In this document: positions 6,401-22,571 of the stretch, piece by piece
Layout of the letters: each line of letters begins with the position of its first letter
Numbering within the stretch: position 1 is the first letter of the stretch
From: a virus
Direction: 5' to 3' (one strand)
IMG/VR virus record: IMGVR_UViG_3300028571_000131
Location: 1-22,808 of that record
DNA length: 22,808 nucleotides
Notes under the pieces: model-generated
Told to the model about the DNA's origin: nothing
The model's input: the letters and a program-made list of their open reading frames with translations, nothing else
Databases searched by the model: none
Program-made: the position numbers and the translations under genes

Positions 6401-7685
6401 GATTAGTTAATCTTTCATTTAGCAAACTTACAGTATATGTTGTAGAAAAACCAATTTTTGGAGAACCATATACATTGTCTAATTTTGCTATATTTCCTAT
6501 CCTGATTGGAAGATTTGTATTTTCTTTTAATTTTGTTGTTCTTGGTTTTAATATATCAATAGAAGAAGTAGAAATTTTATCTACTTCAAATCCTCTTATA
6601 TACGATTTTCCCGGAGAAACTTGAAGAACGTATATATTATCAGACGGAGTATTATCATTTTGAGTTAATTGATTTTCTAAATATATACCTCTATTTGATA
6701 TTCTGTCATTTAAAGATTCTCTTACGTCAATTGCAAATGGTTTTATGTAATAATCTCCAGATTCTTCATAAGTTCTTCTTGCTAATTCATCTTTAAATAC
6801 ATTAAAATCTGTTTTATTTACAAATTTTTGAAGTACACCATTTTCTACTCTAATGAGTTCTATAAAATCTTGATCATTTTTGTCAGTTAATAATTTTTTA
6901 TAAAGAGTAGCAGAAATTTTAAATCGATCTGCTCCTGGTGCAGATTCATTAGAAAATCCTTTTGCATTATCATATAAATCTGAATTTATTGAAGATGCAT
7001 TTATTATTTCCTCAGAAATCTGAAGACCTATTCTGTAACTAGGTGTATTTGTATACTGATCAAGAATTATGGTTTCTTTTAATACTTTAACAAAATAACC
7101 TCTAATAAAATATATTCCCTCACTAATTGATGCTGATGATCCAATTTTTGACGCATTAGTAGTAATACATCTAGCAAATGAACTATTAGCAAAAATACTA
7201 GATAACGAATAGTCAATATCAGACAATGTAATTAAATTTTCTCCATCTTGAAAAGTTTTTACGATTCCATCTGTTCCTGATGCAGTATATTTAACATAAA
7301 TTGTATCAAAATTATCCACAGATTCATTTGATGTAATAAAATTAACGACATTAGCAGTAACGCCGGACAATTCTCCTTTAATTTCAATTTGATTGTCAGA
7401 AAGAACTTTTAAATATTCTTTTACTGGAATATTTAAAAAATTAGAATCAATTCTTACGGCAAAATATCTATCATCATAAAATGTTCCACCAGGAATTACG
7501 ACAGAACCTTCCTTAAAAAAATATTGTCCAAATTTTTCAATTTGATTTTGTAAAATTGATTGTAGAGTTGTTATTTCTCTAGATTGAATAGGAATTCCTG
7601 GTTTAAATAAAACTTTTCTATAGTTTTTATTTTCGTCGAAATCGTCGAAATATGGAGAAATATTTAAATTGGTTTTTTGAGTCAT
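402..7685 (-). CDS. Giant DUF4815-type virion structural protein (baseplate/tail periphery)
   Basis: A 2427-residue protein. Its N-terminus (residues 8-45: SPYFDDFDENKNYRKVLF, then a Q-REITTLQSILQNQIEKFG stretch) is the signature of DUF4815 proteins of tailed phages. A 'SPGKSYIRGFEVD' motif near residue 355 fits the same family. Around residues 1660-1775 is a second conserved block (GWYDPLAQSFLV, then GVFITGGEVYFKTKD, then SKYLTYITRMGEEDL), followed by SLFKSQNSSTWDASQLEDLKF, which recurs in cyanophage tail proteins. A Gly-Tyr repeat (ITNGGTGYALGD) lies near residue 1940, an 'HGMH' segment near 2025, and a 'YLQINNEIISY' module near 2080. The C-terminus ends PPRIKNFRAIAL, as in related proteins. 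It starts 4 nt after the gp8 stop and overlaps the next gene by 8 nt. In T4 this position would hold gp9/gp10, so a role at the wedge periphery or fibre attachment is inferred, not shown. Confidence 0.9.
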   Translation of the reverse strand: MTQKTNLNISPYFDDFDENKNYRKVLFKPGIPIQSREITTLQSILQNQIEKFGQYFFKEGSVVIPGGTFYDDRYFAVRIDSNFLNIPVKEYLKVLSDNQIEIKGELSGVTANVVNFITSNESVDNFDTIYVKYTASGTDGIVKTFQDGENLITLSDIDYSLSSIFANSSFARCITTNASKIGSSASISEGIYFIRGYFVKVLKETIILDQYTNTPSYRIGLQISEEIINASSINSDLYDNAKGFSNESAPGADRFKISATLYKKLLTDKNDQDFIELIRVENGVLQKFVNKTDFNVFKDELARRTYEESGDYYIKPFAIDVRESLNDRISNRGIYLENQLTQNDNTPSDNIYVLQVSPGKSYIRGFEVDKISTSSIDILKPRTTKLKENTNLPIRIGNIAKLDNVYGSPKIGFSTTYTVSLLNERLTNRSIGSATTIGVAKVYDFNQKNIAGVTTTQYEIRLFDIQTYTSLSIGLGITAGADSHIRGQYSGSTGFLKESVSNQINLTVYDTKGEFQINEPLFINGINVGRNLTSIRDYDFSDIKSIFGISGISTFASDLVLDKGKKVFTEASQFTISAISAGVSTVTSPSVSDFSSLVKIGDIVKFSRPGFNTSTYNKVTTISKNYINITGISTVLGVCEGGAPNSNITVTDFDVVIPVLDKSNDPGYIVPLQNKFISSVNLLDSTYIIRKQILKNITGNNFTFYLSDLGDNDIYFEPFDESSYILTWEIGEKEVIRESQVTFSVDLRELTISGLSRTGNAILTCTVKRNKLSSKEKIIKRCENLIINKSKFNGSGIGSTTFNDGLTYSSVYGTRVQDEEISLNVPDIYRVLAIFESNNSSDPILPSIVVSLQSSSFTNNIIIGEQFIGNTSGAIARVVDIIGESQLSFVNENEKTFEINESIALKTSGIVATISSIVSGDRNILQNYSLDNGHRLEFVDYGRIIRKKNISDPTKKLRIVFDYYLNNEIVGNVESVNSYNSLNYSTEIPFIIGNRASDYIDFRPRVSAYSTNSIISPFSFFSRNFNLSSSETVVSNKTITIDYTYYLGRIDRLYLTKDGIFEIIKGEPSENPKTPIPNDEGFEVAVISMKPYVINATSDVLIKMLPHKRYTMKDIGSIENRIKNLEEYTTLSLLETDTKNLSIKDPNTGLDKFKSGFFVDNFRNHNSHNLTGESYFDIDPITSECRPRSSERNVSLIFETKSSLSDPTNADYRWIEDFESPNITRNGPGLTLAYTEVNFISQEFATRTENLNPFHIALFSGTIELTPTSDFWIEEVSLPTPDIVKIDSAYNAIADLLGIENRENGGMAASYWNSHETTWNGRDIIQEELISSNLVSSQTNSQQSGFVSGLGIRNTSTTIETLSNDYLQTFKTTGTDKTFGLELSSSADTVSLGSRVIGVDILYNCRSRNIEVVGKRLKPNTRYYVFLENTDMTEYCVPKLLPITMVRGSFSTSEIVKTSRSPQSIGTPQISFRVAQSNHKFGPFNSPTETYSIDPYTSTLLTSSYSGNSKTINIDTADLALPIVSSNIGYVKKGTVLCNQFGTAEAIVNDLSLISDEKGNLIFSLHIPDPKIASNPKFTTGLNTIRVTTSSTNANQLDSGDSSAETIYNATGYAQNNQEQTLSIKTPEIERKQIGSDQPITRITQDLDENRIETRTTTTDTGWYDPLAQSFLVERDKYQDGVFITGGEVYFKTKDEKIPVTVQIRTMRDGTPTTTILPFGQTEIDPKDINLSQDGSSPTQFSFSTPVYLQSGYEYSLVLVSPTSKYLTYITRMGEEDLILKSISNRQPYLGSLFKSQNSSTWDASQLEDLKFKLFKAKFVTNTPSSFSMYNQELPIGKILKNNPSIAYSKRQYVSIASTTTVFVQGNTITQSTSSGNIFGSGGPVGLGTTSLSLVSSGIGITNGSYSGIGFTSLTGFGNSCTANITVSSGTVTQFNITNGGTGYALGDLLIANKLGNTGTGVRAVVGIVSQTNFLIIDDVNDNIVAGIALTYYNSSGSSILISAPTSVNDDSIRDGYTMLFDHKNHGMHSSSNKVKIENFASDISPVLLSQSLTNSSTIITVSNSGIFTSFEGSPVGAGNTGYLQINNEIISYNNVSGNDITISNRAIDFSLNANHPSNSFVYKYEFNSISLRKINKDHNIDSREKTFNNYYIKLDDISKTFSSTKFGGGNNLQVSQNIPFEVIDPRITIITPTGTNISSRIKTTSGTSISGNESSFTDKGYENVSLNKLNYLDDPRIVASKINEYNLLNNQKSFALELTLSTNNEDVSPLIDLNTANIILISNLVDDKVDDFTIDSRVNIPGFDPNSAIYETKKISLEFSSNSLHVQFDGHREENSDIRAMYKLYRNDNSDFQQVYLAFNGDGSSDKVVNSNTGINNFSEYKFTANDLPQFNGFMIKIIMTSTNQATPPRIKNFRAIALRSFASDE
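7407..7438. repeat. Perfect 12-bp inverted repeat inside the DUF4815 gene
   Basis: Arms 7407-7418 (ttttaaatattc) and 7427-7438 (gaatatttaaaa) are exact reverse complements around an 8-nt loop. It lies in the N-terminal coding region, about residues 83-93 (LNIPVKEYLK). It is AT-rich, so it is one of the weaker members of the set seen in this window. Confidence 0.8.
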
Positions 7686-7689
7686 TTTT

Positions 7690-9255
7690 TTAAAATTCTA
7701 CTACGATTTTTAGTTCTTCTTTTTGTGATGAAGATCTTGTAATTGGTGCTCTATTATCAATATAAATTATTTCACCTGAATATTTTTTTATATCCGGAGT
7801 AGAAACTCCTGAAGTAAATGTTTGACCCAAATCGATTATTTTTCCTCCAATTTGAATATTATTTGTATTAAAATTAGTATCAACAATTAACGGAGAACCT
7901 TGTACTTCTGCACAATTAATCGTTACTCCGGCTCCAACGAATTTAAAAAGTCTGTAGCTATGAGAACTAAATGTAGAAAGACCAACTGGTTGATAATATT
8001 TTAAAACACCAGTATTTGGATTCCAAGATGCAACATAACCAACAGCGGTAGAACCAACACCAACGGTTTGAGTAATTTTAGCATTTAATGGATAATTGGT
8101 ATCTGAGGTATTTCCTGCACCTATTGGTTTTAATTTCAATGCATCAAGACCAGTGGCTGTAGAAGTATTTATCAATTCATTTTGACTTCCAAATATTACA
8201 GGATTTTTTAAAATTCCTATACGAGAAAAATTATTACCAATAATATAATCAGGATCGGAATCGTACTTAGAATATACCATTACTCTATATGCCCCAAGTT
8301 CTCGGTACACATCGTATCCGTGCCCTTGTTTTGGTGGAATAATAACTTCAATAATTCCACCAGATCCTGCAGTTATTTCTGGAGATCCACCAAATCCAAT
8401 ACCAAAATTTACAAATGCTCTAGTATATCCAAATCCACCATCAGTAACTGTAATTGTATCTATTTCCCCTCCGGTGATTGTAATAGATACCAATCCTCCA
8501 GTTCCATCTCCAAGAATAGGAATATTAATAATAGTTCCAGTTGTTTCACTATTTGCAGTTATATAACCAGATCCTCTATTTTTAACTATTGCAGTTTGTA
8601 ATTTACCATCGACTGAAGCGTTTTTTATTGTTTCTGTATTTATGTCTCCCCAGTTTTTCGGCAAAGGCATAAAATTTTCTGTTGCAAATTGTATAATATC
8701 TGATGGAGGTACAGTATAAAGATATTTCCAAAGATATCCATCAGACCCATCTCCCACCGATTGTGGATTAATATCTACAAAGTTTGGTTCAAATAATGAT
8801 TTTTGTCCTTTTGGGTTTTCTGGATTTGAACCGTTATTTAAACAAATATAAACTTTATATTCCGAATTTAAAATATAGAATCTGGAATCATATAATGTCT
8901 TAGAGTCTGTTTGTGGTGCTCCATTATCGATGTCGTAATTATTCCTGTACATATCATAAGTAATACCCAGTTCCCAGTCAATTCTTGGAATTACTCTAGA
9001 AATATCATTAGATGTTATTTTTTTAAGAAATAACATACTATCGTAATATAAATTTTCTTGTTGAAATGAATCCTTTGGTTCTGGAGGATCTGAAGACCAA
9101 TTAGGATCCCCATAGTTTTCAATAGTTATATTAGTTGGATTGGGATGAGATAAGAATGTATAATATTGATTTGTAGTAGTTCCGATCCCAACAAAACTTT
9201 TAATAAAAGTTTCCGCATTTAATATTCTAAATTGGTCAGTAATTATTGCTGGCAT
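7690..9255 (-). CDS. gp8: gp8-like baseplate wedge protein
   Basis: A 521-residue protein starting MPAIITDQFRILNAETF. It continues with a PPEPKDSFQQENLYYDSMLF segment and 'SRVIPRIDWELGITYDMYR' (about residues 85-107). This N-terminal pattern is the one annotated as baseplate wedge subunit gp8 in T4-like cyanophages. The order gp25-gp6-giant-gp8 also matches T4 6-7-8. T4 gp8 has 334 residues. The extra length here includes a Gly-rich beta-repeat insert at about residues 215-310 (NRGSGYI, VTDGGFGYTRAF, GGSPEITAGSGG), a module also seen in the two giant neighbours. The C-terminus (IIYIDNRAPITRSSSQKEELKIVVEF) contains a 'IdNR.pi.R...Q.E..k.v..F' pattern, common in wedge proteins of this group. 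A perfect late promoter box is 16 nt upstream and no Shine-Dalgarno is visible, so the transcript may be almost leaderless. Identity is based on motif memory and position. Confidence 0.82.
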   Translation of the reverse strand: MPAIITDQFRILNAETFIKSFVGIGTTTNQYYTFLSHPNPTNITIENYGDPNWSSDPPEPKDSFQQENLYYDSMLFLKKITSNDISRVIPRIDWELGITYDMYRNNYDIDNGAPQTDSKTLYDSRFYILNSEYKVYICLNNGSNPENPKGQKSLFEPNFVDINPQSVGDGSDGYLWKYLYTVPPSDIIQFATENFMPLPKNWGDINTETIKNASVDGKLQTAIVKNRGSGYITANSETTGTIINIPILGDGTGGLVSITITGGEIDTITVTDGGFGYTRAFVNFGIGFGGSPEITAGSGGIIEVIIPPKQGHGYDVYRELGAYRVMVYSKYDSDPDYIIGNNFSRIGILKNPVIFGSQNELINTSTATGLDALKLKPIGAGNTSDTNYPLNAKITQTVGVGSTAVGYVASWNPNTGVLKYYQPVGLSTFSSHSYRLFKFVGAGVTINCAEVQGSPLIVDTNFNTNNIQIGGKIIDLGQTFTSGVSTPDIKKYSGEIIYIDNRAPITRSSSQKEELKIVVEF

Positions 9256-9284: not shown

Positions 9285-12200
9285 TTAGTAAGATAATCTT
9301 AATGGTAAAATTCTAGAGACATGTGCAGAAGTTTCTATTCCTATAACACCATTTTGATTATTAAATTGAAAAGATTTCGAATTTAAAGATCTTGAAATAT
9401 TAATAGAACCCCAAGTATATGTTCCATAATTATTTAAACTAGTTGAAATAAAATTTGATCCAGTGTTTATTCCAGATATCGAAAAAACATTAGAATATAC
9501 ACGAAGTGTGGATGTACCAATAGAAACAACATGGTTTGCATAATATATATTATCTATAAAACTATTTCCAATAGAAACTACATCAATTGAATTATTTTTA
9601 ATTGATGTAGTTCCATTTCCAATAGTAGTATTTTCGATAACAAAATAGTCTCCTGTAGAAATTCCAGAACGGGTTACTTTTTGGGCAGAAGAAATATTTT
9701 TATCTAATGGAGGATCTGTAGAAATATTTGGATGTGGAATAATATCAAAAGAAATTGATGGTGTTGTGGTTCCGATACCAACAGAACTTGTTCCAATTCC
9801 TACAATTAATCCATAGTCTCCATTATAAGACACTTTTTTAATTTTTTCTGTAATTGCGGTAGTTCCTATTCCAACAATAATAATATCATTTAAAGTTTGA
9901 GATAAATCATCAATTGTATTAAAAAATGGAAAAGTATTTTTTACATACATTTTCGTATCTGTCGAAGATAATGATACAATTATATTTGTAGTTGGATTTA
10001 TGATAGGTTCTAAATAATTTCTTTCTTTTGATATTTTTTCTCCATCGATAATAATATCCGATTTTTGTTTTGACCAAACAATTGGTCGGAGAAATGATTT
10101 GTCAGTAATTATTCCAATTCCACTATATGTTTGAGTTTCTAATGTATCTGCAGCAATTAATTCGTAAACTATTCTTTCTTCTTGAGATGGAATATTATCT
10201 TTTTTTTGTAATCTAATTCTATCTCCTGGTTTAATTGTTTCATCTATGTCTATTTCAAGATAATCTGATTCGGAACCAGTATAAAAATAAATTTTAAATT
10301 TACTTCCTGCCTTTGGTGCTTCTAAAAACTTTAATCTTGTCCCACTTGTAAATTGATAATCAATATTTGGTTTTTGTAAAACATTATTAATAAATATTAA
10401 AAGATTATTTGCTAATAAAATCCCAGAACCCTCTTTGGCAACAATGCTGTAATATTCTTTATTTACTATAGTTCTTGTTAATAAAAACGATTTTCTAACT
10501 CCATTAAAAAGATTACTAAAATCATCAAGTTCCAAAAGTTGTCCCAAAGTCCAACCAGAAAATTTACTTTGATATCTATTTTTAATTGTAATGTTGAATG
10601 CTGAAGTGCCTATTCCAACTTTATATGGAATTTGGGTCAATGTTAATACATCTCCAATTGAATATCCATATCCTCTATTTTCTAAATTAAATGAAATTAT
10701 ACTACCACCTGTCCCTACTACAACGTTTATTTTTGCACCAGTTCCAGTTCCTCCACTTAAAGTTAGATTGGTGTAGGGTGCTGGTTCATCTATAATGACT
10801 ATTGGAGGACTTGAAGTTGTATATCCACTACCAGCATTTGAAATACCAAATGAAGTTACTATCCCATTAGTAACTAATGAAATAATGGATGCGCCAATTC
10901 CAATACCTAAAGTATCTGCAATTGATACTTTAGGTGGAAATCTATATCCAGATCCACCAGTTGATAATCCTATAGACTGTATAGTTCCTCCAGAAGACAC
11001 TACAGCATATCCGAATGCTCTATTTGGAGGTTGGTATCCACTTCCAAGGCCAGTAAAAAATTCATTTATAACTCCACCTCTTGGTAGATCTTCAAGATAA
11101 GATCCAGTAAAATTAATTGATTGTCCGGTTCCTACTATTTCATAATCAGACTTCAAAATAGATCCAACATCGCCATAAAATGGTTTTTGGAAAATATTAT
11201 TAACAAGAATAATACCAAAACTAGATGTAATGCCGCTAATGGTTTGATTGTTATTTTTTAAATTAAATTCACTGGTCTGACTATTAAAATTTTCTGATAT
11301 ATCATCAATTATATAATTTGTACTATAATCCAATCGATAAAAAACTCTTCCCGAAAATGTAGATCTTGTAGTTAGTTCTCCGATTCCAGTTGGACCGTAT
11401 GGAGGGTCCGAAAAATATATAACTCCATCTTTTATCAAATAATCACCAGAAAGAACATTAATTGTTGCTCCAACTGTATGTGCAGAAGATACCGTCCCCA
11501 TCTGCCCTCTAATAATATTGAGAGAATTTGTAGATCCAATACCTACTAAAGATACTTTTATTATTTCATTTTCAATTTTAATTAAAGATTTTCCTTGTAT
11601 TTTTGATATATCCGAAAGATATATTACTGTAGTTCCTATTCCTACTGATGAAGCAAGAGAAACTATTATATCTTTTCTAGATACAGGACTTTGTATAATA
11701 TTGTCAATAGAAATTATGCATCTGGTAGTAGCAAGTTCGCTTTCTACAGATAAAGTATGAACAGTTCCCACTCCAGCAGATGAAAATGTAATTGCAATTC
11801 CCGCAATCGCTTCAGTTTTTCCTATAGCTAGTTTAATTAAATCTTTTGTAATTTTAATTGCATATATTGAAGATGGAAGAATATCAGTATTACCAATTCC
11901 AATAACGTTCATAGTTACAATTCCAATTGGAGTTCCTCCATTTGATGAATATATTAAGTTTTCTCCTGTATTAAACTCGTGGTCATTTATACTAATGTTA
12001 GATAAAGGTGTTGTTATTTTAGAAGATTCGAATTTTTTATTAAAAACCGTATTTCCGGAAGAAGTTAGTATAAATGAAGTTATTCCAATTATTCCTCCAC
12101 CAACAGTAGTCGTAACTCCGGTAAATTGAGGACTTATATCATCAAGTAATAAAACTTTATTACTAATAGATTCGTTGTAGTCAGTAATAACTTTAGAATC

Positions 12201-15200
12201 AAATTTAATTATTTTTGATAAAGAGTTATCATCAGTATCCTCTGATGCAAGATCATAATAAAATCTATCATATACTGAAGATTCGCTAAAAATTTCTACA
12301 TTTAAGTCAACCTGAGATACATCGCTATTAACTTTAACAGTATTTCCAATTCCATTTAAAATTTGCAAATCTGAAAAATTCTTAAATCCAGATGTGTGCA
12401 ATATGCTATTTACGGATTCTTTCCATGTATCATAATCAATTTCGCTTTTTATTGAATAAGAAAATCTTTGATAATAATCATTATCGTGAATTCTTTGATC
12501 ATTAAAACTAAGTTTTCCTTTATTATTTTCCCAATCTATTGATTTTCTTGATATACTATTTACTTCAAAATCAAAATCAAATTCGTATATATTTTCAATT
12601 GAAGATTTATAATTTCCTATATTTCCAACTATTATTTTATTTTTTTCAAATATACCTTGAGGATTTATAATTTTTAACGTTTGGGAAATTGGATCCCAAC
12701 CATTTTTAGCAACAAATCCATAAGCATTTCCATTGATTTGAGTTATTTTTTCTCCTTCAATAAATTTAACTTTTTCAAATTCTGGACTGTATATTGCCAA
12801 ATCTGTAGATTTTATTACTCTTCCAAAAATATTAGTAGGGTCAAATGATCCCCCAGTACTTCCAATTCCAGAAATAGAATAGGTAACACTCTCAGAACCA
12901 CCTGTCGTATTAATTCCAGTAACAACAAAATACCTATATCCATAATCACTAGAATTATATCCATCTGCATTATTTGTAATTTTTACATTTTCTACATAAA
13001 TTTTATCATTCACAGAAAATGGAAATTTAGAAAATCCAGTAATTGGTGACCTAAGAAATAAAGTATTTAATCCAAATTCGGAAACTGCATCTGAAACTGA
13101 CACTCCATTTGAATTTATAGTTGGTATAATTCTCAAATTATTCGAAAGTCCACTATCATTTGAAATAATTTGAACTTTAGATACAGAATTTCCTTGTGTA
13201 CTGGTTTTAGTTAAAATGTTTGGATTTCCAATTGCAATAGTTTTTGGCGCTGATGTATAATTTGCTCCTCCATTATCAATATTAATATTTTTCAAAGTCA
13301 AAATATCAAATAACCTTAAAATAATATAAGAATCTACTTTTGGTGCTAATGTTTTATTATTTGTAAACTCTAATCCTTGATTTGTAATATCAACATCTAA
13401 AATTTTTCCAATATTATCCGATTCTATAGATAATGTAGCATAGTTTCCAGATATTGTTTCTATTGATGATACTGTTGGTAATTTTGAAATATTTTGTCCA
13501 GAATTAATAATTTTTATAGAATGAATTCCTCCCGTTTCTTTATTAGAATTAGTAGAATAATATGCGGTAGATAATCCAGAAATATTATAAAATGTAGTTT
13601 CTGCACTTCCAACTAAAGTAAATGAAAATGTGGTACTTCCAATACCTGAAATTTTATGAACTCCATTGATTTTTGAGTCTACAATTTCAATACTAGAGTA
13701 ATTCGGAACCTCAGTATTTACTGATGATGGATAGGTAGTTGTAAATTTTAAATCATTACCTTCAATTCTATAATATAATTTTTCTGGTAAAGAGTCTTTA
13801 ATTGAAATATTAATTTTAGTCGATGAGTTGGCATCTCCGAATACACCATTTTTTTTAATTAATTTAGATTCATATCTTGATTTAAAATCAGAATCAGTAT
13901 AAAAATTGATATCATAACCAGATAAACTAGTATCAGAAACTGCAATAGAAACATTATTTCCTCTGTAGAAGGTTAATTTTGGATTAATCTTTGCCAATTC
14001 GTGAGTTCCTGATCCAAATGAAGTTATTCCAATATTTTCATATGGAAATTTAATTACGTCAAAATTATTTTTTGCAATCTTTATTGTGTTATTATTTATT
14101 TTGATTATGTGATATATTCCATTGTTTTCGAGTGGTGTAATTGGATTTGTTGCAGTGTAAACTACCAAATCCCCAGTTTGATAGTTATGATTAATAATTG
14201 AAATATTTGAATTTGAAGTACCAACACCGACTGCAGTGGATGCAAATGAAACTTGGTTTGTTACTAATTTTTTAATAACACTATTGAATTTAAAATTATA
14301 ATAATCAAATTTATTAGAAATAATATTTAATTTGATTGTATCATTTTTTATAAGGTTGTGAGGTTCATTTAGTGTAATATTTACATTTGTTTTTTTAACT
14401 TGTCCAGTTATCTCATCTACAATTGTTTCGAGTTTATGATTATTTCCAGATACAGAATTGAAATAAATATAAGAAGTCGAAAACCCAATCTTTGATGTAG
14501 ATAAACCAATAAATTCATCACTAAGTTTTACGCAGTAAAAAACACCAACATCACTCAATGAAAAAGTTGGACTTAACGTAGAGTTACTAGATGCAAAAAT
14601 TGTTCCACCGATTGCAACATATGATACTAAATCACCAGTTTTAAATTGATGATTTGGTAAATAAATTGATCTTGGAGGAATTGATTTTCTAATATCATCA
14701 CTTCCCGACGTTCCCACTATTACGTTACTATAAGTAGTTCCAATTCCAACAGATTTTGTAGAATCAAAATAATATAGCTTGCTGTTTTCTTTATTTTTAT
14801 TTTTTAATTTTTCATTTACGTTAAATGTAAATTCTTTTGGAAATTTTGTTACTAATTTACCAAATGTATGTGATGATCCAACGGAGTTATCATAACTCCT
14901 GATAACTCTATACTTATTATTATATTCATCGATGTTAATAATAAGTATTTTTTCGGATCCAATACCAATTATATCGTTTATTTTAATATTTTTATTAGAT
15001 GGTGGTTCTGAGATTGAAATAAATGTAGTAATTCCAGTGGCCAAAGTACTTCCAATTGCACTAGATACTGAAGACACAAAAGAAGTAATCCCAATAATTC
15101 TAATTCCTTCAATATTTTTATAAAGTGAAGATGAAATTCCACTTATTTCAACAATATCACCATCTATAAAATTAAGAGGAGATGTGCTGAATGCAGTAAC

Positions 15201-18200
15201 ATTTGTTCCAAGAACAGAAAATTTCAAATTATTATTTATTATTTCTGTCGTTGCAATAGAAATAATATTTTTACCCAAAATCTCACTTACGGCACAATTA
15301 ATAGAATTTTGATTTGAAAAATTTAAAATGTCACCGACTTTATATAAACTTCCGGGATTTATTACATTTATGGATGAAATGTCCGAAAGTTTAGTTAATT
15401 TTACTTTTACATTTGCATTTGAATTTAAAGAATCCATTAGAAATGGATAATTCCTATGAGATTCTTTTAGTCCTAGTGGAGTTATATTTCTTTTGTATTC
15501 TCCAGTGTTTATATATGAATCTGATTGATCAATTAATACATCATAGTTAAATAAATCTGAAGAATTATAATGTTTAATTGTTATGTATGGAAATGCTGGA
15601 TTGTTATTGTCGTCTAAAGTAGAAAAATAAGCATAAGTTCCATTAGGAAAATCTGAATTTATAAGATATCTTCCATTATATTCGTCCAAATCTCCATTTC
15701 CATTATAAAAATAATCATCTACAAAATAACCAAGAGGATATCCAGAAGGTCTTAGATTATTATCTAAATTTTGGTTAAGTTCATAACTAGATTTTAATCT
15801 TTTTATTCCTCCAGTTCCAGAAGAGTCTGGAATACTTTTAGCATTTCCACATGGTCCATAAATTGGATTTCCGTCATATGCCCAACCAATAATGGGAGAG
15901 TGGGATAATCCCTCCAATAATTCTTCAAATGTGTTTGGGTCCAAATTATCACCTAAAATTTTACGAATTTCTTTTGTAGCGTAAAATGAACAAATTTTAT
16001 TCTGTTTTAATTTTATTTCAGATGGAATCTGTAAAGTTCCCTTATAAATTTCTTCATTTAAAATATTTTTATATCTTTCTACTGAATTAATTTTCCATTC
16101 GTGTATATTTGAGTTAAATATTGCACCAGATCCTGCAGGAAGAACTCTAATATATGTTTCATTTTTGGTGTATCCTTTTCCGCTATTAATAATTTCTATT
16201 GAAGTTATTTTTCCATTTGAAACATTTGATTTTAATTTAGCATATTTTCCAGAACCGATAATTTCAAGTATTGGTGGAGTAGTGTATTCCAATCCAGAGT
16301 TTAGAATCCGAATATCAACTATTTCTCCATTTGTATTAATAATTGGAAAAAGATCTCCATTTATTCCAGTTTTTAGTGAAATTGATGGTTCTTTTATATA
16401 ATTGATAATATCCGTTACGCCATATCCAATACCTCCGTTACTTATGAATATATTTTCTATTTTTCCTCTAGATACTGCATACGCTGTGGCATCATAATAT
16501 GAGGGCCTTATAGTATCCCCAATACCAGTATTCCCTAAAATATTAACTTTTATTTCGGGGTAATTGAAAGTATGTGTTCCTGCTCCAATACTTTTTAAAT
16601 TTTCATAAATTTTGTTGTTAAAATTATTATCCGAAATACTAGATGCAGATCCGGCATTACTTAATTTGAATTTATTCGGATCAATAACAAATACATTGTA
16701 ATATGATGAGGTGGAAAGTCCCAAAATTTCAGTATCACTATTAGAATATGTTACTAAGTCCTTATTCTTGAAATTATGATTTTTTGCATAAATGTAATTA
16801 TCATACGTGTTAATACCTACAAATGTTTTATATATATCCTCTCGATTTATTGGTGGATAAGGTTGTGCATTAATTACTATCTTATTATTTGAATATAATG
16901 ATCCTTGATTATTGATAACAATTTTATCAATAATTTTTCTATTTCGGTTTGAAGTAAAGGTATGTGTATTATTTCCAAATAATACAAAATCTATTAATTC
17001 TGTTTTTTTAATTGCTCTTTCCTTTGTCGATGCAATAGAAAATGAAGTATTATCTATTTTTGCAACATAATAAATTGCACCATTTGATAATCTAGAAGTA
17101 GAAAATCCCACATTGGTACTTCCGATCCCAATTGCAACTCCGTTCGAAGTGTATATTATTTCTTCTCCATCTAAAAATTTGTGATCATAATCTAGAATAA
17201 TTTTATTAAGAAAAAGATTGACTTTTAAATCAGAAAATGATATAGAGTGCCTAAATGATTTAAGCGTTGCTGAGCACTCTGCTCCAATTCCATTACCGCC
17301 AGAAATAGTAACAGATGGTATATTTGTATAATCAAATCCCGGAGATGTTAAAATTATTTCAGAAATATTTCCCTGAATGTGCGCATATGCTTCTGCTCCA
17401 CTTCCCGTACTATCTACTATGGAAACATTTGGCGGATTTGTAATATCATAATTATTTCCATTATTTAATATATTAATTTTTTCCAATTGACCGTAAAATG
17501 CAGAATCAGTATGAATTGGAGAATGCAATTCAATTCCATTAACTCCAACTCCTATTTGACCAGTAATATTAATATTATTTTTTGAATTTTTTGGTGTTTT
17601 TAGTATTCTTCTAAAATTATTTTGATTAATAAGAGATTTATTAAATAAATTCGATGGAGAAATTATATGAGAATCGTTACCAGATCCATTAAAAAATACA
17701 AAAGAGTTATTAGATAAATTTGATTTGTTTAATGCTAATTTTATATTATCATTATTTATTTTTTTTATATAATAAAACCCACTACTGATTCCGGTAATTC
17801 CACTAGAATCAGTTAAAGAATTATAATAAATTTTATCTCCTGTTATGAAGTTATGCTCATTGATGCTAATTGTACTAGAAGATGCACTAGATGATGTAAA
17901 TATTTTAGATCTATTTGTGGTTTCTATTGAAGAATATGATGGAAATCCAGAGAATGCAATATAAGTATTTTGGTCTTTATCGATAAATGAATTCTGAATA
18001 TCTGCAAGTAAAAAATTTAATTTGAGATTTTCATTTACGTATTTTAAATTTTTCTTAATAGTATATTCGCCAAATGAATTCAGTTGACCGCTAAAAATTT
18101 TAAATTTATTATTATCAAGTATTTCAGTTACTTTAACATTAGAAATTACAACAATATTGGTCTTTTTGTCGATTATATCAATATTATCTTCTTTATGTAA

Positions 18201-19580
18201 AAAATGATAATTTTTTGTTGTAATTGTGTTAGTATTTGAATCTACCGTAAGAGTATCTACATATGTTACATTATTATGAAACCAAGTATTAAATTTCTTA
18301 TCTAATAGGGAAACTTTTTCTCCAAGATATTTGACTCCAAAGGAATCATCTGCATTAAAATATTTAGTATCAGATGTCCCTGTAGAAACGTTGGATATAG
18401 ATCCAACAACTCTCATTTGGCAGATAATATTCGTATTATTATTTTCATATCCGTAAACAAATTCGTCATTTATAATTTCTGTATTTGAAGATATTGATGT
18501 TGTTAATCCAGAGCAACCAAAAAACTGATTATGGGATTTTGATTGATAAGATGCCTTCTGGTAATTTTTATTATTAGATAAGTAATAAAAATTACCAGAA
18601 GTCGGAAATCCAAGAGTAGAATCCACAGTAACTACTTGTGGACTTGTTGGTTCAATTACTCTTGTTTTATTGTTAATATGAAACCTATTATCAATAGTGT
18701 CTTTAGAAAAACTTATTTTATAATATCTTTTATTCGCCAAAAATACTTCTTCAACATTTGATACAGTTCCGTTTGCAGTTGGTAAAATAAAAGAATTTTG
18801 ATATATTGTAGTATCTTTTAAATTAATTGGATTACCAAAAATAGATTCGACTATCATATTATCAAATACTTTCCATTCTGCATCTGATGCAACAATTGTA
18901 TTATCGAAAGGTTTTAATATTTCTACATTTTTTCCATATAAAATTTTAAATAATATTTTTAACGATGCATCAGTTCCTTTAGAACTATAAAAATCCCTTG
19001 CTCTACCTAAAATATTTTCAATTGATAATTTTGGCGTAAAATTTCTATTTTCAAATCCAGGAATAAAATTATACTTATATTTTTGAAAAAATTCTAATAA
19101 AAATAAAAAACTTAAATTATATACATTCGAATTTGGTGCATGAATATTTGCTTCAGTTTCTGTAAAAGTTAAATATTTCGAATTTTCAAAAGATTCTATT
19201 TCGGAAATTCCACTAAATCCTCGAACACAACCAGTAAAAGTATTTGTGGTCAATCCAGTATATGTAATAATTTCATCATCTATCTTTAAAAGTCCATACG
19301 TATTAGGAAATCCTATAGTACTATTGACTAAAATTGTTTCATCAAATGATAAAATTTCAGAAACAGTTTTTATTGGAAAAGAAGCAACATTTACTGAAGA
19401 ATATGATGAAATATTTTTATATGATGGAATATTTTCACAAAGATTTATATTTCCGTAATCATGTTCTTCGGAAATATAATATTGTTTTAGAAATTCCAAA
19501 AATAATGGATTTTCGTTACCAATAAAATCTGGTATTTGACTTTCTAAAATATTTGAAATTTTAATTTTTTTATTAGTCAT
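9285..19580 (-). CDS. Giant 3431-residue modular baseplate/tail structural protein with YHYH domain
   Basis: One uninterrupted frame of 3431 codons, starting 2 nt after the gp6 stop. It occupies the T4 gene 7 position, but T4 gp7 is about 1030 residues and I see no clear gp7 signature. It is built from recurring beta-type modules. Gly-Tyr repeats (pattern 'I..I.NgGsgYt..P.v.I', e.g. IEIINSGKGYT) occur near residues 700-775, 1040-1155, 2015-2118 and 2860-2985. 'H.f.tGD.v.Y ... YyikkI....ikla' modules are near 570, 792, 927, 1637, 1792 and 2528. An 'IDDEIITYTG...CVRG' module is near 82-125. 'NNVLQKP'-type segments are near 2620, 2790 and 3060. A YHYH-type domain (HSPIIGWAYDGNPIYGPCG, then FPNGTYAYF) spans about 1195-1335. 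The C-terminus (YGTYTWGSI, then VSRILPLRLSY) resembles the ends of giant cyanophage structural proteins. No signal peptide or membrane segment is apparent. It probably forms the outer wedge or tail-side decoration; the function is inferred. Confidence 0.88.
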   Translation of the reverse strand: MTNKKIKISNILESQIPDFIGNENPLFLEFLKQYYISEEHDYGNINLCENIPSYKNISSYSSVNVASFPIKTVSEILSFDETILVNSTIGFPNTYGLLKIDDEIITYTGLTTNTFTGCVRGFSGISEIESFENSKYLTFTETEANIHAPNSNVYNLSFLFLLEFFQKYKYNFIPGFENRNFTPKLSIENILGRARDFYSSKGTDASLKILFKILYGKNVEILKPFDNTIVASDAEWKVFDNMIVESIFGNPINLKDTTIYQNSFILPTANGTVSNVEEVFLANKRYYKISFSKDTIDNRFHINNKTRVIEPTSPQVVTVDSTLGFPTSGNFYYLSNNKNYQKASYQSKSHNQFFGCSGLTTSISSNTEIINDEFVYGYENNNTNIICQMRVVGSISNVSTGTSDTKYFNADDSFGVKYLGEKVSLLDKKFNTWFHNNVTYVDTLTVDSNTNTITTKNYHFLHKEDNIDIIDKKTNIVVISNVKVTEILDNNKFKIFSGQLNSFGEYTIKKNLKYVNENLKLNFLLADIQNSFIDKDQNTYIAFSGFPSYSSIETTNRSKIFTSSSASSSTISINEHNFITGDKIYYNSLTDSSGITGISSGFYYIKKINNDNIKLALNKSNLSNNSFVFFNGSGNDSHIISPSNLFNKSLINQNNFRRILKTPKNSKNNINITGQIGVGVNGIELHSPIHTDSAFYGQLEKINILNNGNNYDITNPPNVSIVDSTGSGAEAYAHIQGNISEIILTSPGFDYTNIPSVTISGGNGIGAECSATLKSFRHSISFSDLKVNLFLNKIILDYDHKFLDGEEIIYTSNGVAIGIGSTNVGFSTSRLSNGAIYYVAKIDNTSFSIASTKERAIKKTELIDFVLFGNNTHTFTSNRNRKIIDKIVINNQGSLYSNNKIVINAQPYPPINREDIYKTFVGINTYDNYIYAKNHNFKNKDLVTYSNSDTEILGLSTSSYYNVFVIDPNKFKLSNAGSASSISDNNFNNKIYENLKSIGAGTHTFNYPEIKVNILGNTGIGDTIRPSYYDATAYAVSRGKIENIFISNGGIGYGVTDIINYIKEPSISLKTGINGDLFPIINTNGEIVDIRILNSGLEYTTPPILEIIGSGKYAKLKSNVSNGKITSIEIINSGKGYTKNETYIRVLPAGSGAIFNSNIHEWKINSVERYKNILNEEIYKGTLQIPSEIKLKQNKICSFYATKEIRKILGDNLDPNTFEELLEGLSHSPIIGWAYDGNPIYGPCGNAKSIPDSSGTGGIKRLKSSYELNQNLDNNLRPSGYPLGYFVDDYFYNGNGDLDEYNGRYLINSDFPNGTYAYFSTLDDNNNPAFPYITIKHYNSSDLFNYDVLIDQSDSYINTGEYKRNITPLGLKESHRNYPFLMDSLNSNANVKVKLTKLSDISSINVINPGSLYKVGDILNFSNQNSINCAVSEILGKNIISIATTEIINNNLKFSVLGTNVTAFSTSPLNFIDGDIVEISGISSSLYKNIEGIRIIGITSFVSSVSSAIGSTLATGITTFISISEPPSNKNIKINDIIGIGSEKILIINIDEYNNKYRVIRSYDNSVGSSHTFGKLVTKFPKEFTFNVNEKLKNKNKENSKLYYFDSTKSVGIGTTYSNVIVGTSGSDDIRKSIPPRSIYLPNHQFKTGDLVSYVAIGGTIFASSNSTLSPTFSLSDVGVFYCVKLSDEFIGLSTSKIGFSTSYIYFNSVSGNNHKLETIVDEITGQVKKTNVNITLNEPHNLIKNDTIKLNIISNKFDYYNFKFNSVIKKLVTNQVSFASTAVGVGTSNSNISIINHNYQTGDLVVYTATNPITPLENNGIYHIIKINNNTIKIAKNNFDVIKFPYENIGITSFGSGTHELAKINPKLTFYRGNNVSIAVSDTSLSGYDINFYTDSDFKSRYESKLIKKNGVFGDANSSTKINISIKDSLPEKLYYRIEGNDLKFTTTYPSSVNTEVPNYSSIEIVDSKINGVHKISGIGSTTFSFTLVGSAETTFYNISGLSTAYYSTNSNKETGGIHSIKIINSGQNISKLPTVSSIETISGNYATLSIESDNIGKILDVDITNQGLEFTNNKTLAPKVDSYIILRLFDILTLKNINIDNGGANYTSAPKTIAIGNPNILTKTSTQGNSVSKVQIISNDSGLSNNLRIIPTINSNGVSVSDAVSEFGLNTLFLRSPITGFSKFPFSVNDKIYVENVKITNNADGYNSSDYGYRYFVVTGINTTGGSESVTYSISGIGSTGGSFDPTNIFGRVIKSTDLAIYSPEFEKVKFIEGEKITQINGNAYGFVAKNGWDPISQTLKIINPQGIFEKNKIIVGNIGNYKSSIENIYEFDFDFEVNSISRKSIDWENNKGKLSFNDQRIHDNDYYQRFSYSIKSEIDYDTWKESVNSILHTSGFKNFSDLQILNGIGNTVKVNSDVSQVDLNVEIFSESSVYDRFYYDLASEDTDDNSLSKIIKFDSKVITDYNESISNKVLLLDDISPQFTGVTTTVGGGIIGITSFILTSSGNTVFNKKFESSKITTPLSNISINDHEFNTGENLIYSSNGGTPIGIVTMNVIGIGNTDILPSSIYAIKITKDLIKLAIGKTEAIAGIAITFSSAGVGTVHTLSVESELATTRCIISIDNIIQSPVSRKDIIVSLASSVGIGTTVIYLSDISKIQGKSLIKIENEIIKVSLVGIGSTNSLNIIRGQMGTVSSAHTVGATINVLSGDYLIKDGVIYFSDPPYGPTGIGELTTRSTFSGRVFYRLDYSTNYIIDDISENFNSQTSEFNLKNNNQTISGITSSFGIILVNNIFQKPFYGDVGSILKSDYEIVGTGQSINFTGSYLEDLPRGGVINEFFTGLGSGYQPPNRAFGYAVVSSGGTIQSIGLSTGGSGYRFPPKVSIADTLGIGIGASIISLVTNGIVTSFGISNAGSGYTTSSPPIVIIDEPAPYTNLTLSGGTGTGAKINVVVGTGGSIISFNLENRGYGYSIGDVLTLTQIPYKVGIGTSAFNITIKNRYQSKFSGWTLGQLLELDDFSNLFNGVRKSFLLTRTIVNKEYYSIVAKEGSGILLANNLLIFINNVLQKPNIDYQFTSGTRLKFLEAPKAGSKFKIYFYTGSESDYLEIDIDETIKPGDRIRLQKKDNIPSQEERIVYELIAADTLETQTYSGIGIITDKSFLRPIVWSKQKSDIIIDGEKISKERNYLEPIINPTTNIIVSLSSTDTKMYVKNTFPFFNTIDDLSQTLNDIIIVGIGTTAITEKIKKVSYNGDYGLIVGIGTSSVGIGTTTPSISFDIIPHPNISTDPPLDKNISSAQKVTRSGISTGDYFVIENTTIGNGTTSIKNNSIDVVSIGNSFIDNIYYANHVVSIGTSTLRVYSNVFSISGINTGSNFISTSLNNYGTYTWGSINISRSLNSKSFQFNNQNGVIGIETSAHVSRILPLRLSY
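9576..9612. repeat. Perfect 13-bp inverted repeat near the 3' end of the giant gene
   Basis: Arms 9576-9588 (aactacatcaatt) and 9600-9612 (aattgatgtagtt) pair exactly around an 11-nt loop. It is coding, encoding part of TTSIKNNSIDVVSIG near residues 3323-3335. It is not near a stop codon and has no T-tract, so it is not a terminator. Confidence 0.85.
10905..10935. repeat. Perfect 12-bp inverted repeat in a Gly-Tyr module of the giant gene
   Basis: Arms 10905-10916 (acctaaagtatc) and 10924-10935 (gatactttaggt) pair exactly around a 7-nt loop. It is coding (PKVSIADTLGIG, near residues 2882-2892), inside one of the Gly-Tyr beta-repeats. Confidence 0.85.
14910..14948. repeat. Perfect 13-bp inverted repeat in the giant gene
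   Basis: Arms 14910-14922 (atacttattatta) and 14936-14948 (taataataagtat) pair exactly. The 13-nt loop itself holds the palindrome CATCGATG. A second palindrome, GGAGTTAT-c-ATAACTCC, lies just before it at 14884-14900. The region codes for about residues 1545-1566 (ILIINIDEYNNKYRVIRSYD). Confidence 0.8.
18555..18601. repeat. Perfect 19-bp inverted repeat, 9-nt loop, in the giant gene
   Basis: Arms 18555-18573 and 18583-18601 are exact reverse complements over 19 bases (cttctggtaatttttatta and its complement), with loop ttagataag. The element is fully coding (TSGNFYYLSNNKNYQK, about residues 327-342), within a 'GFPTSG' type module. It lies far inside the gene, so it is neither a terminator nor an intergenic regulatory hairpin. 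Confidence 0.92.
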
Positions 19581-19582
19581 TT

Positions 19583-21469
19583 TTATCTTATATATTTTTT
19601 ATTATCAATAAAACTTGAAGGTGGATTGTAGAGTGTTCCAGATTTGTTTGATCCGGAAGAAATAATATCCTCAATAAGGAACAAATTACTATTTCCTGTA
19701 GTATCTAGAACAATATAAAGATTTTCTTTTGAGATTATATCATTCGATTCTGGAATGACTTCTATTTCAATTTTATTCAATAAACTTGTTGACGTTATCA
19801 TTATTGGGTAGATGATTATTTCTCCTTTTTCGTAATTTACTTTTCCTGCATTATTGTTTATAAAATTGGGTTTTCCTTTATCTAAGGTAAAAAATCTAAT
19901 CTTACCAATTAATTCGCTAGAGTTATCAGGAATATCTGTTATGTATATATCTTCACTTATTCCATCAATTTTAAAAGAAGATGATCGAATATTAAATCCC
20001 TCACTATCTGCATGAAATTTATTTCCATAACATATTTCATAATTTGCAATAAAATTATAAGAAGGTAATAAATTTCTTCTCATTTTTAAAGTGGTTATAT
20101 TAGAAGTAATTCCTTTATCTACATTATCAATTATGGAAGTAAGTTTACTATATTTTAGCCTTCCCCCAAATGAGTTAATATCTGAAGATTTGGAGTAAGA
20201 TTCAATAGTCAATTTAATTCTTGAATCAAGGTCTTCTTTATTTGAAATAAAACTTGGATCATAAGATACTGTAGAATTATATTCTACATACAAATATTTT
20301 AAATCTATAAATTCCTGTTTGATTCCGGCAACCGTGTATTTTTTAAGATTATTTTTTATGAAATTTTTTGTAGTGTCCGATAAAAAATCACCATTTTTTG
20401 GTTTAATTGTAATAAAAACTTTCCCATATTGCGGCGGATCTAATTCTTCTCCACCATAAGCACTTACCGAGTCTATATTTCCATATAAAAAAGGAATTAG
20501 ACTAATATAATCAGTCGCAGTTACTGCTCTATATTGCGATGCATAAATTCTAGGAGCTAAGTATTTAACATTATCTACACTTTCGATATCGTCTCCATTT
20601 TCCGAAGATTCTGTAGTAGTTAAAAGAGATATTCCAGAAGTAATTGATTTATTTTTTCCACTTTGTAGGTATGATAAATTACCAGAAAAAGTAAAATTAG
20701 TTGCTCCATTTCCCTCTATTCCATTAGTTACAATATATGATACTATAATTTCGCTTCCATTTTCTGGTTTTTTCCCAAAAATATCATCACCAAAAATAAT
20801 TTGATATTTTTCATCATTAATTTCCTGAACTAAAAATAATTTTGAGGATGGACTGACATTAAAAATGTTAGAATATAATGAATAGTTATCTGTAGTAGTA
20901 GATTTTACGGAAACGCGAATCGTTGAAGTATCTATATTTGAATTTGGTAATATATATTTTGCATCTGATTGCGAATAATCAACTATAAACGATTTTTTTA
21001 AATAATTTCCTTCATAAATTTCAATGTTAGAGAATGAAGCAATTCCATTATTATTTGGAGTAACTATAATATCATCTGGAATTGAAAAAATATAATTACC
21101 TCCCTCTACAGAACCTAAAGTTACTACTCCAGCGTGTAACTTAACAGATTTTGCAGGTAAGTTATTTAAATTTACATCAAAATTAATTTTTGCAATTGCT
21201 GCTTTTTTTGATCTTGGAACGTATCCAATATTTCTTGCTAATGAAACTACATTTTCTCTCAAAGTAGCACTATCAATGAACGACTCATTGATAGCCATAT
21301 TAGTATTATATGCAGTTATATATGAATTATATGCAAGAGTATCAATTAAAATAGAAAAATTAGATCCCTCAAAATCAAAATCAGTAAAATTGGAATTTGT
21401 CCTCAGATAGTCTTTAATCTGAGTACGTATGTCTTTAAAATCTAAATTAGTAAATTGATTGAATGACAT
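19583..21469 (-). CDS. gp6: Baseplate wedge protein gp6 (baseplate J-like)
   Basis: A 628-residue protein, close to T4 gp6 (about 660). The N-terminus (FKDIRTQIKDYLRTNSNFTD, then GSNFSILIDTLAYNSY and NMAINESFIDSATLRENVVSLAR) is the standard gp6/baseplate-J start. Around residues 218-255 is the core motif IIFGDDIFGKKPENGSEIIV followed by GIEGNGA. At about residues 300-325 is the conserved PRIYASQYRAVTATDYISLI. The C-terminal third has a KVNYEKGEIIIYPI segment typical of phage gp6 tails. In T4, gp6 forms the dimeric wedge core that joins neighbouring wedges with gp53, gp25 and gp7. The start ATG shares its A with the TAA stop of gp25 (TAATG), so the two are likely translationally coupled. The downstream giant gene begins after 2 nt. 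All signature parts are intact. Confidence 0.95.
   Translation of the reverse strand: MSFNQFTNLDFKDIRTQIKDYLRTNSNFTDFDFEGSNFSILIDTLAYNSYITAYNTNMAINESFIDSATLRENVVSLARNIGYVPRSKKAAIAKINFDVNLNNLPAKSVKLHAGVVTLGSVEGGNYIFSIPDDIIVTPNNNGIASFSNIEIYEGNYLKKSFIVDYSQSDAKYILPNSNIDTSTIRVSVKSTTTDNYSLYSNIFNVSPSSKLFLVQEINDEKYQIIFGDDIFGKKPENGSEIIVSYIVTNGIEGNGATNFTFSGNLSYLQSGKNKSITSGISLLTTTESSENGDDIESVDNVKYLAPRIYASQYRAVTATDYISLIPFLYGNIDSVSAYGGEELDPPQYGKVFITIKPKNGDFLSDTTKNFIKNNLKKYTVAGIKQEFIDLKYLYVEYNSTVSYDPSFISNKEDLDSRIKLTIESYSKSSDINSFGGRLKYSKLTSIIDNVDKGITSNITTLKMRRNLLPSYNFIANYEICYGNKFHADSEGFNIRSSSFKIDGISEDIYITDIPDNSSELIGKIRFFTLDKGKPNFINNNAGKVNYEKGEIIIYPIMITSTSLLNKIEIEVIPESNDIISKENLYIVLDTTGNSNLFLIEDIISSGSNKSGTLYNPPSSFIDNKKYIR
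21270..21294. repeat. Perfect 10-bp inverted repeat with 5-nt loop in gp6
   Basis: Arms ctatcaatga (21270-21279) and tcattgatag (21285-21294) flank the loop acgac. It codes for the conserved AINESFIDSA motif near residues 59-67. At this length a chance match is plausible. Confidence 0.6.
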
Positions 21470-21870
21470 TATATTCTAGTTGGTTGTAAAATAAATTCTA
21501 TGTTTTGAATAGGAAAAGGCAATCCAACAATATCATATGAAATTTTTATATTTAAATTATTCGAATCTTCTATAAATTCAAGTAAAATATTTTTTAAATT
21601 AATTCTTGGTTCAAAATTTTTAATTAATGTGATGATTTCTTCTTCTAAAAAAGAAAATAAATCAGAATCAGAAAGTTCAAACAAAGAATTTTCGACTGAT
21701 GTTCCCAATAAATCATTAAAAAATCTTTCATTTAAACGAGTCCTAACAAGATTTATAACAGATTTTTTAATAGCATCTTCATTTTTTAAAATAATTAAAT
21801 CATTAGTAACTGGATGTTTCGTAAAAGATAAACTAATATCTTTAAAACTACGAGAAATTGTTACTGCCAT
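21469..21870 (-). CDS. gp25: Baseplate wedge protein gp25 (GPW/gp25 family)
   Basis: A 133-residue protein, matching the usual gp25 length (T4: 132). It contains the family core DISLSFTKHPVTNDLIILKN followed by EDAIKKSVINLVRTRLNERF (about residues 11-50). After these come the Gly-Thr-Ser segment and an FEPRINLKNI motif near residue 86, as in GPW/gp25 proteins. In T4, gp25 joins gp6 and gp53 in the wedge core and helps start tail sheath assembly. The ATG at 21870 gives a full family-like N-terminus (MAVTISRSFKDISLSF). It overlaps gp6 by one base. The leader of 35 nt is AT-rich with no clear Shine-Dalgarno, and a late-promoter-like box lies at 21898-21891. Confidence 0.95.
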   Translation of the reverse strand: MAVTISRSFKDISLSFTKHPVTNDLIILKNEDAIKKSVINLVRTRLNERFFNDLLGTSVENSLFELSDSDLFSFLEEEIITLIKNFEPRINLKNILLEFIEDSNNLNIKISYDIVGLPFPIQNIEFILQPTRI

Positions 21871-22209: not shown

Positions 22210-22536
22210 TTAACGATTTAATATTTTAAGATTATAATTATAAGAATTTAAATATTTAAGTATTTCCAGAGCAACTAATTTTGGATTTTCCTTTCCGCAA
22301 GTATAGATATCAATTGCAATACATCCTTCTTCTGGCCAAGTATGTGCTGAAAAATGACTTTCTGATAGTGCAATTACTATGGTAAGACCTTGTGGTTCAA
22401 ATTTGTGCGTAAAAATATTTAAAATATTCATTTTAGCACGAGAAATCCCTCTTTTAATTACTTCTAAAAGAGGGATTTCTTCATTTAACAAATTGTAATC
22501 TATATTATACACCTCTAATAAGAGATGATTTCCCAT
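22210..22536 (-). CDS. speD: S-adenosylmethionine decarboxylase proenzyme (SpeD)
   Basis: Makes decarboxylated S-adenosylmethionine, the aminopropyl donor for spermidine synthesis, using a self-made pyruvoyl group. The prokaryotic signature is intact: ALSESHFSAHTWPEEG followed by IDIYTCG. By comparison with the Thermotoga enzyme, self-cleavage occurs between Glu and Ser of 'SES|H' (Glu59-Ser60 counting from the ATG). The catalytic His (Ser+5) and Cys (Ser+20) are both present, and Thr takes the place of the Ser eight residues before the cleavage Ser. Length is 108 residues, slightly shorter than cellular forms (about 120-130). I chose ATG 22536, giving MGNHLLLEVYNID, which aligns with the usual 'GrHl..ElY' start. 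A TTG at 22551 would add only five residues and has no ribosome binding site. It is a known auxiliary metabolic gene of cyanophages. A GATAAATA box lies upstream, and a 16-bp perfect hairpin is embedded in the frame. Confidence 0.95.
   Translation of the reverse strand: MGNHLLLEVYNIDYNLLNEEIPLLEVIKRGISRAKMNILNIFTHKFEPQGLTIVIALSESHFSAHTWPEEGCIAIDIYTCGKENPKLVALEILKYLNSYNYNLKILNR
22441..22480. repeat. Perfect 16-bp inverted repeat, 8-nt loop, inside speD
   Basis: Arms agaaatccctctttta (22441-22456) and taaaagagggatttct (22465-22480) pair exactly around loop attacttc. It codes for EIPLLEVIKRGIS in the first third of SpeD. The adjacent stretch 22405-22439 can add a second stem (GTGC-g-TAAAA with TTTTA-GCAC), so the middle of the speD message should be strongly folded. 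Confidence 0.92.
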
Positions 22537-22571
22537 AGAAAAGTTATCCAATTGTTATAAGAATAAAAATT

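Follow-up and report, generated by a model that had tools for sequence, protein, structure and literature searches.

What is a 3431-residue protein doing between the baseplate wedge genes of a T4-like phage, and of what is it built? The window analysed here, IMGVR_UViG_3300028571_000131, is a 22,808-nucleotide (22.8-kb) virus fragment with T4-like myovirus baseplate wedge genes on its minus strand, among them an intact ORF with an ATG start (9285–19580) that encodes this giant protein. With a probability of roughly 0.7, we consider that it organises the baseplate wedge in a marine T4-like myovirus, having a core remotely homologous to T4 gp7 and a chain greatly enlarged by β-modules. The original prediction, drawn from the letters of the sequence, described a baseplate-wedge protein made of several kinds of small β-module with a long arm, a description that our results support; absent from it were the named family, the T4 gp7 core and the existence of the last quarter as a separable gene. 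Already known is the family itself, the cyanophage and pelagiphage 'gp7'/'VrlC' (phrog_2885) between gp6 and gp8; new here are the modular anatomy, the gp7-core homology and the split arm.

Gene context and family of the giant protein

The genes of the window are, in transcription order:

22210–22551 (−): S-adenosylmethionine decarboxylase, first in transcription order and followed by a small ORF
21469–21870 (−): gp25, after the small ORF and before gp6
19583–21469 (−): gp6, directly before the giant ORF
9285–19580 (−): giant baseplate wedge protein, 3431 aa (phrog_2885; cyanophage 'gp7'/'VrlC')
7690–9255 (−): gp8, directly after the giant ORF
402–7685 (−): DUF4815 protein, 2427 aa, after gp8

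Residues 2–2487 of the giant protein match the phrog_2885 baseplate wedge subunit profile with E = 0 and 2438 bits, and 93 phage records contain one place covering at least 80% of residues 1–1700. The gene order gp25–gp6–giant–gp8 is that of cyanophage S-MbCM7 and corresponds to gp6–gp7–gp8 of T4; adjoining the wedge genes of the window is the S-adenosylmethionine decarboxylase gene. Because a protein equally long (3431 residues) and 93% identical is found on an independent contig (L003), the giant ORF is neither a chimera nor an assembly artefact; another relative (L002) is 100% identical across its matched 400 residues.

Cyanophage members of phrog_2885 are annotated as gp7, 'baseplate wedge initiator', structural protein or VrlC. 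These names conflict: in S-MbCM7 (L092, KF156338) the name VrlC goes to the counterpart of the giant protein and 'gp7 baseplate wedge initiator' to the gene after gp8, in the position of the DUF4815 protein, whereas other cyanophages give the name gp7 to the giant.

Four families of repeated modules

Comparison of the giant protein with itself by BLASTP lists no off-diagonal pairs, and profile methods were therefore used: an iterated search with one seed per module over the giant protein, its neighbours and its relatives. Along the chain, from the N terminus, the modules and domains are as follows (residues in brackets):

19140–19355 (−): IDDE module 1 (76–147); iterated search, fold match to 8jov_1 with Z 8.2
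18432–18638 (−): IDDE module 2 (315–383); iterated search, hhalign, fold match to 9n71_A with Z 9.7
18039–18275 (−): β-barrel (436–514) with E1 FCCH fold and weakly H-like sequence; structure comparison, Z 9.0–9.7 to Uba1 FCCH
17601–17885 (−): H module 1 (566–660); iterated search, hhalign, model
17235–17513 (−): Gly-Tyr module(s) a (690–782); iterated search, hhalign
16935–17225 (−): H module 2 (786–882); iterated search, hhalign, model
16530–16817 (−): H module 3 (922–1017); iterated search, hhalign, model
16086–16493 (−): three Gly-Tyr modules c–e (1030–1165); iterated search, hhalign
15609–15938 (−): YHYH half-domain (1215–1324), without the YHYH motif; Pfam
15276–15452 (−): Gly-Tyr module f (1377–1435); iterated search
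14841–15029 (−): IDDE module (about 1518–1580), absent from the original prediction; hhalign
14406–14684 (−): H module 4 (1633–1725); iterated search, hhalign
13953–14228 (−): H module 5 (1785–1876); iterated search, hhalign, sub-cutoff E1_FCCH
13221–13568 (−): Gly-Tyr modules g–i (2005–2120), diverged; iterated search, hhalign
11736–12020 (−): H module 6 (2521–2615), first module of the arm; iterated search, hhalign, model
11673–11729 (−): INN module 1 (2618–2636), short and weak; iterated search, hhalign
11436–11663 (−): IDDE module (2640–2715); hhalign, fold matches to 9n71_A (Z 10.0) and 8jov_1 (Z 10.2)
11103–11225 (−): INN module 2 (2786–2826); iterated search, hhalign
10635–11009 (−): three Gly-Tyr modules j–l (2858–2982); iterated search, hhalign, model
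10245–10421 (−): INN module 3 (3054–3112); iterated search, hhalign

The H module is present in six copies (starts 566, 786, 922, 1633, 1785 and 2521; i-E from 6e-25 to 4e-15) where about seven had been predicted, and the Gly-Tyr (GY) module, put at about ten, in 11 copies at i-E < 0.01 with two more near 0.02, so that both modules hold and their counts shift. The iterated search finds two strong copies of the IDDE module (76–147 and 315–383). For the INNVLQKP (INN) module, two of the three predicted segments are solid (2786 and 3054), and the short third (2619) is weakly supported (i-E 0.49, hhalign 27%). Over the whole homologue set, matches at i-E < 0.01 number 342 for H, 556 for GY, 130 for IDDE and 53 for INN; reversed and shuffled proteins of the same set give none for any of the four modules. 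The central claim, a giant protein with at least four kinds of repeated small module, is thus borne out by profile searches with empty controls.

As iteration could let copies recruit one another, per-copy profiles built from positional orthologues only were also compared by hhalign. All 15 H–H pairs reach at least 80% (median 98%), 49 of 66 GY–GY pairs reach at least 50%, IDDE pairs score 97% and 73%, and the two long INN copies score 96% with each other; among non-module control segments, 0 of 78 pairs reach 50%. Pairs across families almost never reach 50%, one strong H–GY pair being a shared end. Profile–profile comparison adds two IDDE copies, at 2640–2715 and about 1518–1580 (probability 73–98%; 97.8–98.2% between the two), making four for a module to which no number had been attached.

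Several candidates were set aside. A fifth IDDE copy at 3192–3275 was dropped (hhalign at most 5%), and H-like stretches at 428–515, 1440–1520 and 1722–1785, all below 75%, were left out of the H count; the barrel at 436–514 scores at most 31% against H copies. In the PDB profile search, matches of H to quinolinate phosphoribosyltransferase and of GY to BURRH repeats, the latter in short pieces, look like chance, both coming from unrelated contexts. Pfam scanning of GY and IDDE copies yields stray sub-cutoff matches, and no module passes a Pfam cutoff except the YHYH half-domain. Together the modules make up 41% of the giant protein, and 44% when the YHYH half-domain is counted; about 56% of its residues lie outside named modules. 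The openly licensed literature yielded neither a module analysis nor a structure of the phrog_2885 family.

Related segments occur in other proteins. Residues 205–279 of gp8 (7690–9255) contain a GY module (i-E 0.001 here and down to 2e-5 in relatives), and the DUF4815 protein (402–7685) has GY modules at residues 1897–1970 and 2074–2129 (6e-7) as well as a weak IDDE-like stretch; judged by these profile matches, the module stock is common to the neighbouring wedge genes. Residues 682–776 of the giant protein (window 17253–17537) match phrog_460, named 'head closure Hc2' (E = 2.7e-21), and a structure search with the arm returns cyanophage neck, sheath and fibre proteins. Many virion proteins seem to contain such modules.

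Age of the duplications

The most similar paralogues within the giant protein are 36% (H) and 44% (GY) identical. In distant homologues, a copy shares 34–48% identity with its positional counterpart and 23–31% with its paralogues, and the best resemblance is to the positional counterpart in the giant protein for 202 of 270 H copies, 205 of 338 GY, 102 of 106 IDDE and 28 of 37 INN. As no copy pair within the protein of any relative exceeds 50% identity, recent copying is rejected as the source of the repeats. By sequence comparison, the duplications are older than the spread of the family, as had been supposed from the divergence of the copies. The most recent duplication seen is in the arm of L085, where GY copies at 2913/3407 and 3042/3453 are 49–50% identical.

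Predicted folds of the modules

With the relatives as alignment, AlphaFold2 gave a 1195-residue N-terminal model (mean pLDDT 79.6, good over 240–1195 and of low confidence over 1–240) and a 952-residue arm model (pLDDT 63.8, fair over 2500–3000 and poor after 3215). The original prediction had staked each module on a fold common to its copies. Predicted secondary structure agrees between copies at 0.74 for H, 0.80 for GY, 0.65 for IDDE and 0.71 for INN, compared with 0.44–0.47 for random placement. IDDE copies from the two separate models match the same residues of the same structures: 315–383 and 2640–2715 have fold hits to residues 103–186 of 9n71, a phage tail tube (Z 9.7 and 10.0, respectively), and 76–147 and 2640–2715 both hit GP4, a tail protein of 116 residues (8jov; Z 8.2 and 10.2). 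At the level of predicted secondary structure and fold hits, the copies of a module agree with one another.

The H modules fall short of the Pfam cutoff for E1_FCCH (PF16190; 16.3 bits against 29.5), with three of 41 copies matching at E ≤ 0.05 and residues 1797–1837, in H module 5, at E = 0.011. As the Pfam matches are all sub-cutoff, a link of H to FCCH or to the endosialidase barrel is a lead. The INN profile matches the capsule depolymerase 9k4a twice (135–172 and 207–245, E = 4e-8), and the arm model has fold matches of probability 1.0 to the tailspikes 9k4a and 4y9v.

A core related to T4 gp7

Located at the N terminus of the giant protein is the region related to T4 gp7:

18375–19580 (−): gp7-type wedge core (N-terminal helices, DFYSSKGTDASLKILFKILYGKNVEI segment and next domain), residues 1–402, interrupted by the first IDDE barrel
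18915–19013 (−): strongest T4 gp7 homology, residues 190–222 against 727–759; hhalign P 96.7%, hmmsearch E = 2.3e-6

Searched against 177,635 PDB sequences, a profile of residues 1–1195 finds only T4 gp7 (E = 2.3e-6) and gp7 of Klebsiella phage KP1 (3e-6). By hhalign, residues 190–302 align with 727–822 of T4 gp7 at 96.5% and 32% identity, and the reversed control scores 0.3%. Fold comparison of residues 237–402 with domain V of T4 gp7 (765–852) is borderline (Z 7.9, r.m.s.d. 4.1, 84 residues) and collinear, as are the N-terminal helices 9–44 with 646–681, a correspondence that has no significance alone. The homology is confined to about 100–200 residues of the giant protein; residues 1–640 of T4 gp7, whose profile is shallow, have no hhalign match to any segment of it. 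The Pfam domains Gp7_helical, Gp7_5th and Gp7_6th are present in T4 gp7, and none is reported for the giant protein, which places it as a gp7-core homologue outside the T4 gp7 family proper. No structure of any phrog_2885 member was found in PDB searches by sequence, and neither phmmer with the single giant sequence nor the arm profile gave PDB matches. The core itself varies among relatives: in L008, L010 and L032, a second IDDE-type barrel is inserted beside the first (residues about 89–275).

The DUF4815 neighbour was rejected as the true gp7, since T4 gp7 matches phrog_2885 (E = 1.3e-4) and not phrog_358, the DUF4815 family.

A variable, separable arm

Relatives are collinear with the giant protein from residue 1 to about 2487, beyond which they show insertions, extra modules or the end of the gene.

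12075–12122 (−): core/arm junction, residues 2487–2502; insertion point and gene fission/fusion point in relatives
9285–12113 (−): variable C-terminal arm, residues 2490–3431 (~940 residues); separate gene in some relatives

The arm, with the module order H–INN–IDDE–INN–GY–INN, is fused to the core in the giant protein and is a separate gene in three lineages, the state changing three times (by fusion or fission) on a FastTree phylogeny of the core. It forms a separate downstream ORF in L013/L014, L020, L021, L026, L038 and L047/L048, and in L041 and L054 another gene comes between it and the core; the separate ORFs match parts of residues 2502–3365. In L014, L020, L021, L038 and L047 the arm ORF begins 0–100 bases past the core stop, and for that of L026 no start was located within the 200 bases searched after the core stop. 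Between the core and arm genes of L041 and L054 is an ORF of 338–340 residues starting M(A/S)KQGI.TG..PNDGTGDTL. Being fused in one lineage and adjacent in others, core and arm are suggested to be physical partners.

Proposed role in the baseplate wedge

T4 gp7 is a monomer of the wedge that occurs in six copies and forms, jointly with gp8, the platform where gp6 binds (PMC3004832). Owing to its homology and position, the N-terminal region of 402 residues should take the place of T4 gp7. The N-terminal helices and the DFYSSKG segment would pair with the gp6 dimer, building the wedge as T4 gp7 does, and the conserved barrel chain would run outward as a rigid scaffold binding neighbouring wedge proteins. 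The arm may be an exchangeable adaptor holding phage-specific peripheral proteins, probably fibres or spikes, a proposal that draws on the resemblance of its INN modules to parts of tailspikes and of the T7 fibre N terminus; the β-modules would serve mainly as spacers and protein docking surfaces, rather than as enzymes. With moderate confidence, we assign a scaffold role to the collinear barrels and an adaptor role to the variable, detachable arm, on which peripheral proteins would sit.

Published work regards T4 gp7 as absent from pelagi- and cyanomyophages and apparently substituted by VrlC (PMC7029224), which would make the giant protein an independent occupant of the place of gp7, unrelated to it. 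Although the shortness of the homology and the lack of a detectable counterpart for residues 1–640 of T4 gp7 agree with that proposal, an unbiased PDB profile search that finds gp7 alone, an hhalign match at collinear positions with an empty reversed control, and synteny with T4 make it improbable; the sequence evidence here favours gp7-core homology over unrelated substitution. A rather better, albeit still unlikely, alternative is that the modules are receptor- or carbohydrate-binding units and the giant protein is an organ of host recognition, with an arm varying with host surfaces. The arm is indeed the variable part, INN resembles capsule depolymerases, and six of 41 H copies have sub-cutoff matches to the endosialidase β-barrel (PF12195, best E 1.1e-4). 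Yet matches of these barrels extend to E1 enzymes, tail tubes, a capsid protein and F1-ATPase, indicating that the barrel fold is generic, and the structural analogues of H and INN include both carbohydrate-active tailspikes and proteins with non-binding structural roles. Moreover, the first ~2487 residues, holding most of the modules, are collinear family-wide, unlike a recognition surface, and no carbohydrate-binding family of Pfam is matched above cutoff. Carbohydrate binding, which the original prediction had raised for the modules, found no positive evidence, the motif-less YHYH half-domain being the one match above a Pfam cutoff; the modules may bind receptors or sugars, a possibility that these results do not support.

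Least probable is a role for the YHYH part in degrading the cell wall, as a metal-dependent hydrolase carried by the baseplate, a function proposed for phage YHYH domains (PMC7824862). The Pfam YHYH domain (PF14240) is matched with 75.3 bits against a cutoff of 25, and the segments GWAYDGNPIYGP and GDLDEYNGR are near-invariant in 62 relatives, but the match covers profile positions 80–184 only, the C-terminal half. In two bacterial YHYH proteins (L091 and L093) the G.YHYHG motif lies in the N-terminal half, which the giant protein lacks; the giant protein has no such histidines upstream, its relatives lack the motif there too, and a hydrolase role is therefore unlikely for this protein. A wedge organiser with an adaptor arm is the most likely reading of the giant protein. 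Generalised to marine T4-like phages, it would mean that the gp7 core has been shifted to the N-terminal end and become the root of a modular scaffold, the detachable arm, encoded separately or fused, being an exchangeable adaptor between the conserved wedge and phage-specific fibres, a proposal that we advance only tentatively.

The records conflict, with gp7 both absent and present and two different genes bearing its name; for a protein family found in hundreds of marine phages, the present results settle this conflict on the side of gp7-core homology. The domains of a protein among the largest in these virions are now mapped, together with the exact junction of arm attachment and detachment, which makes segment-wise structure work possible and the adaptor idea testable.

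Comparison with known systems

The closest relatives are the gp7/VrlC proteins of cyanophages and pelagiphages, such as those of Synechococcus phages DSL-LC03, S-CAM9 and S-SSM7, which have the same gene order, 30–40% identity along most of the length and the same YHYH and GY content; they differ in having the arm as a separate gene in some, and other arm lengths and inserts, where the giant protein is fused. Individual parts have counterparts elsewhere. The barrel at 436–514 has the fold of the E1 FCCH domain (Uba1, Z 9–9.7 over 72–78 residues), and H copies give sub-cutoff sequence matches to FCCH and to the endosialidase barrel; none of these passes a curated cutoff, and the barrels here stand in a phage structural context, with no link to ubiquitin chemistry implied. 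INN modules resemble parts of the capsule depolymerase tailspikes 9k4a and 4y9v and the N terminus of T7 gp17 (7boz), being found in tailspikes there and within a wedge protein here. Of the YHYH domain, the giant protein has the C-terminal half, well above cutoff, and not the N-terminal half with the histidines.

T4 gp7 (PDB 5hx2 and 5iv5), encoded like the giant protein between gp6 and gp8, shares with it a homologous core with collinear flanks. The two differ in where that core lies: in T4 gp7, of 1032 residues, about 640 residues precede it, whereas in the giant protein it is at the N terminus, the opposite end of the chain, where an inserted IDDE barrel splits it and β-modules spanning about 3000 residues come after it.
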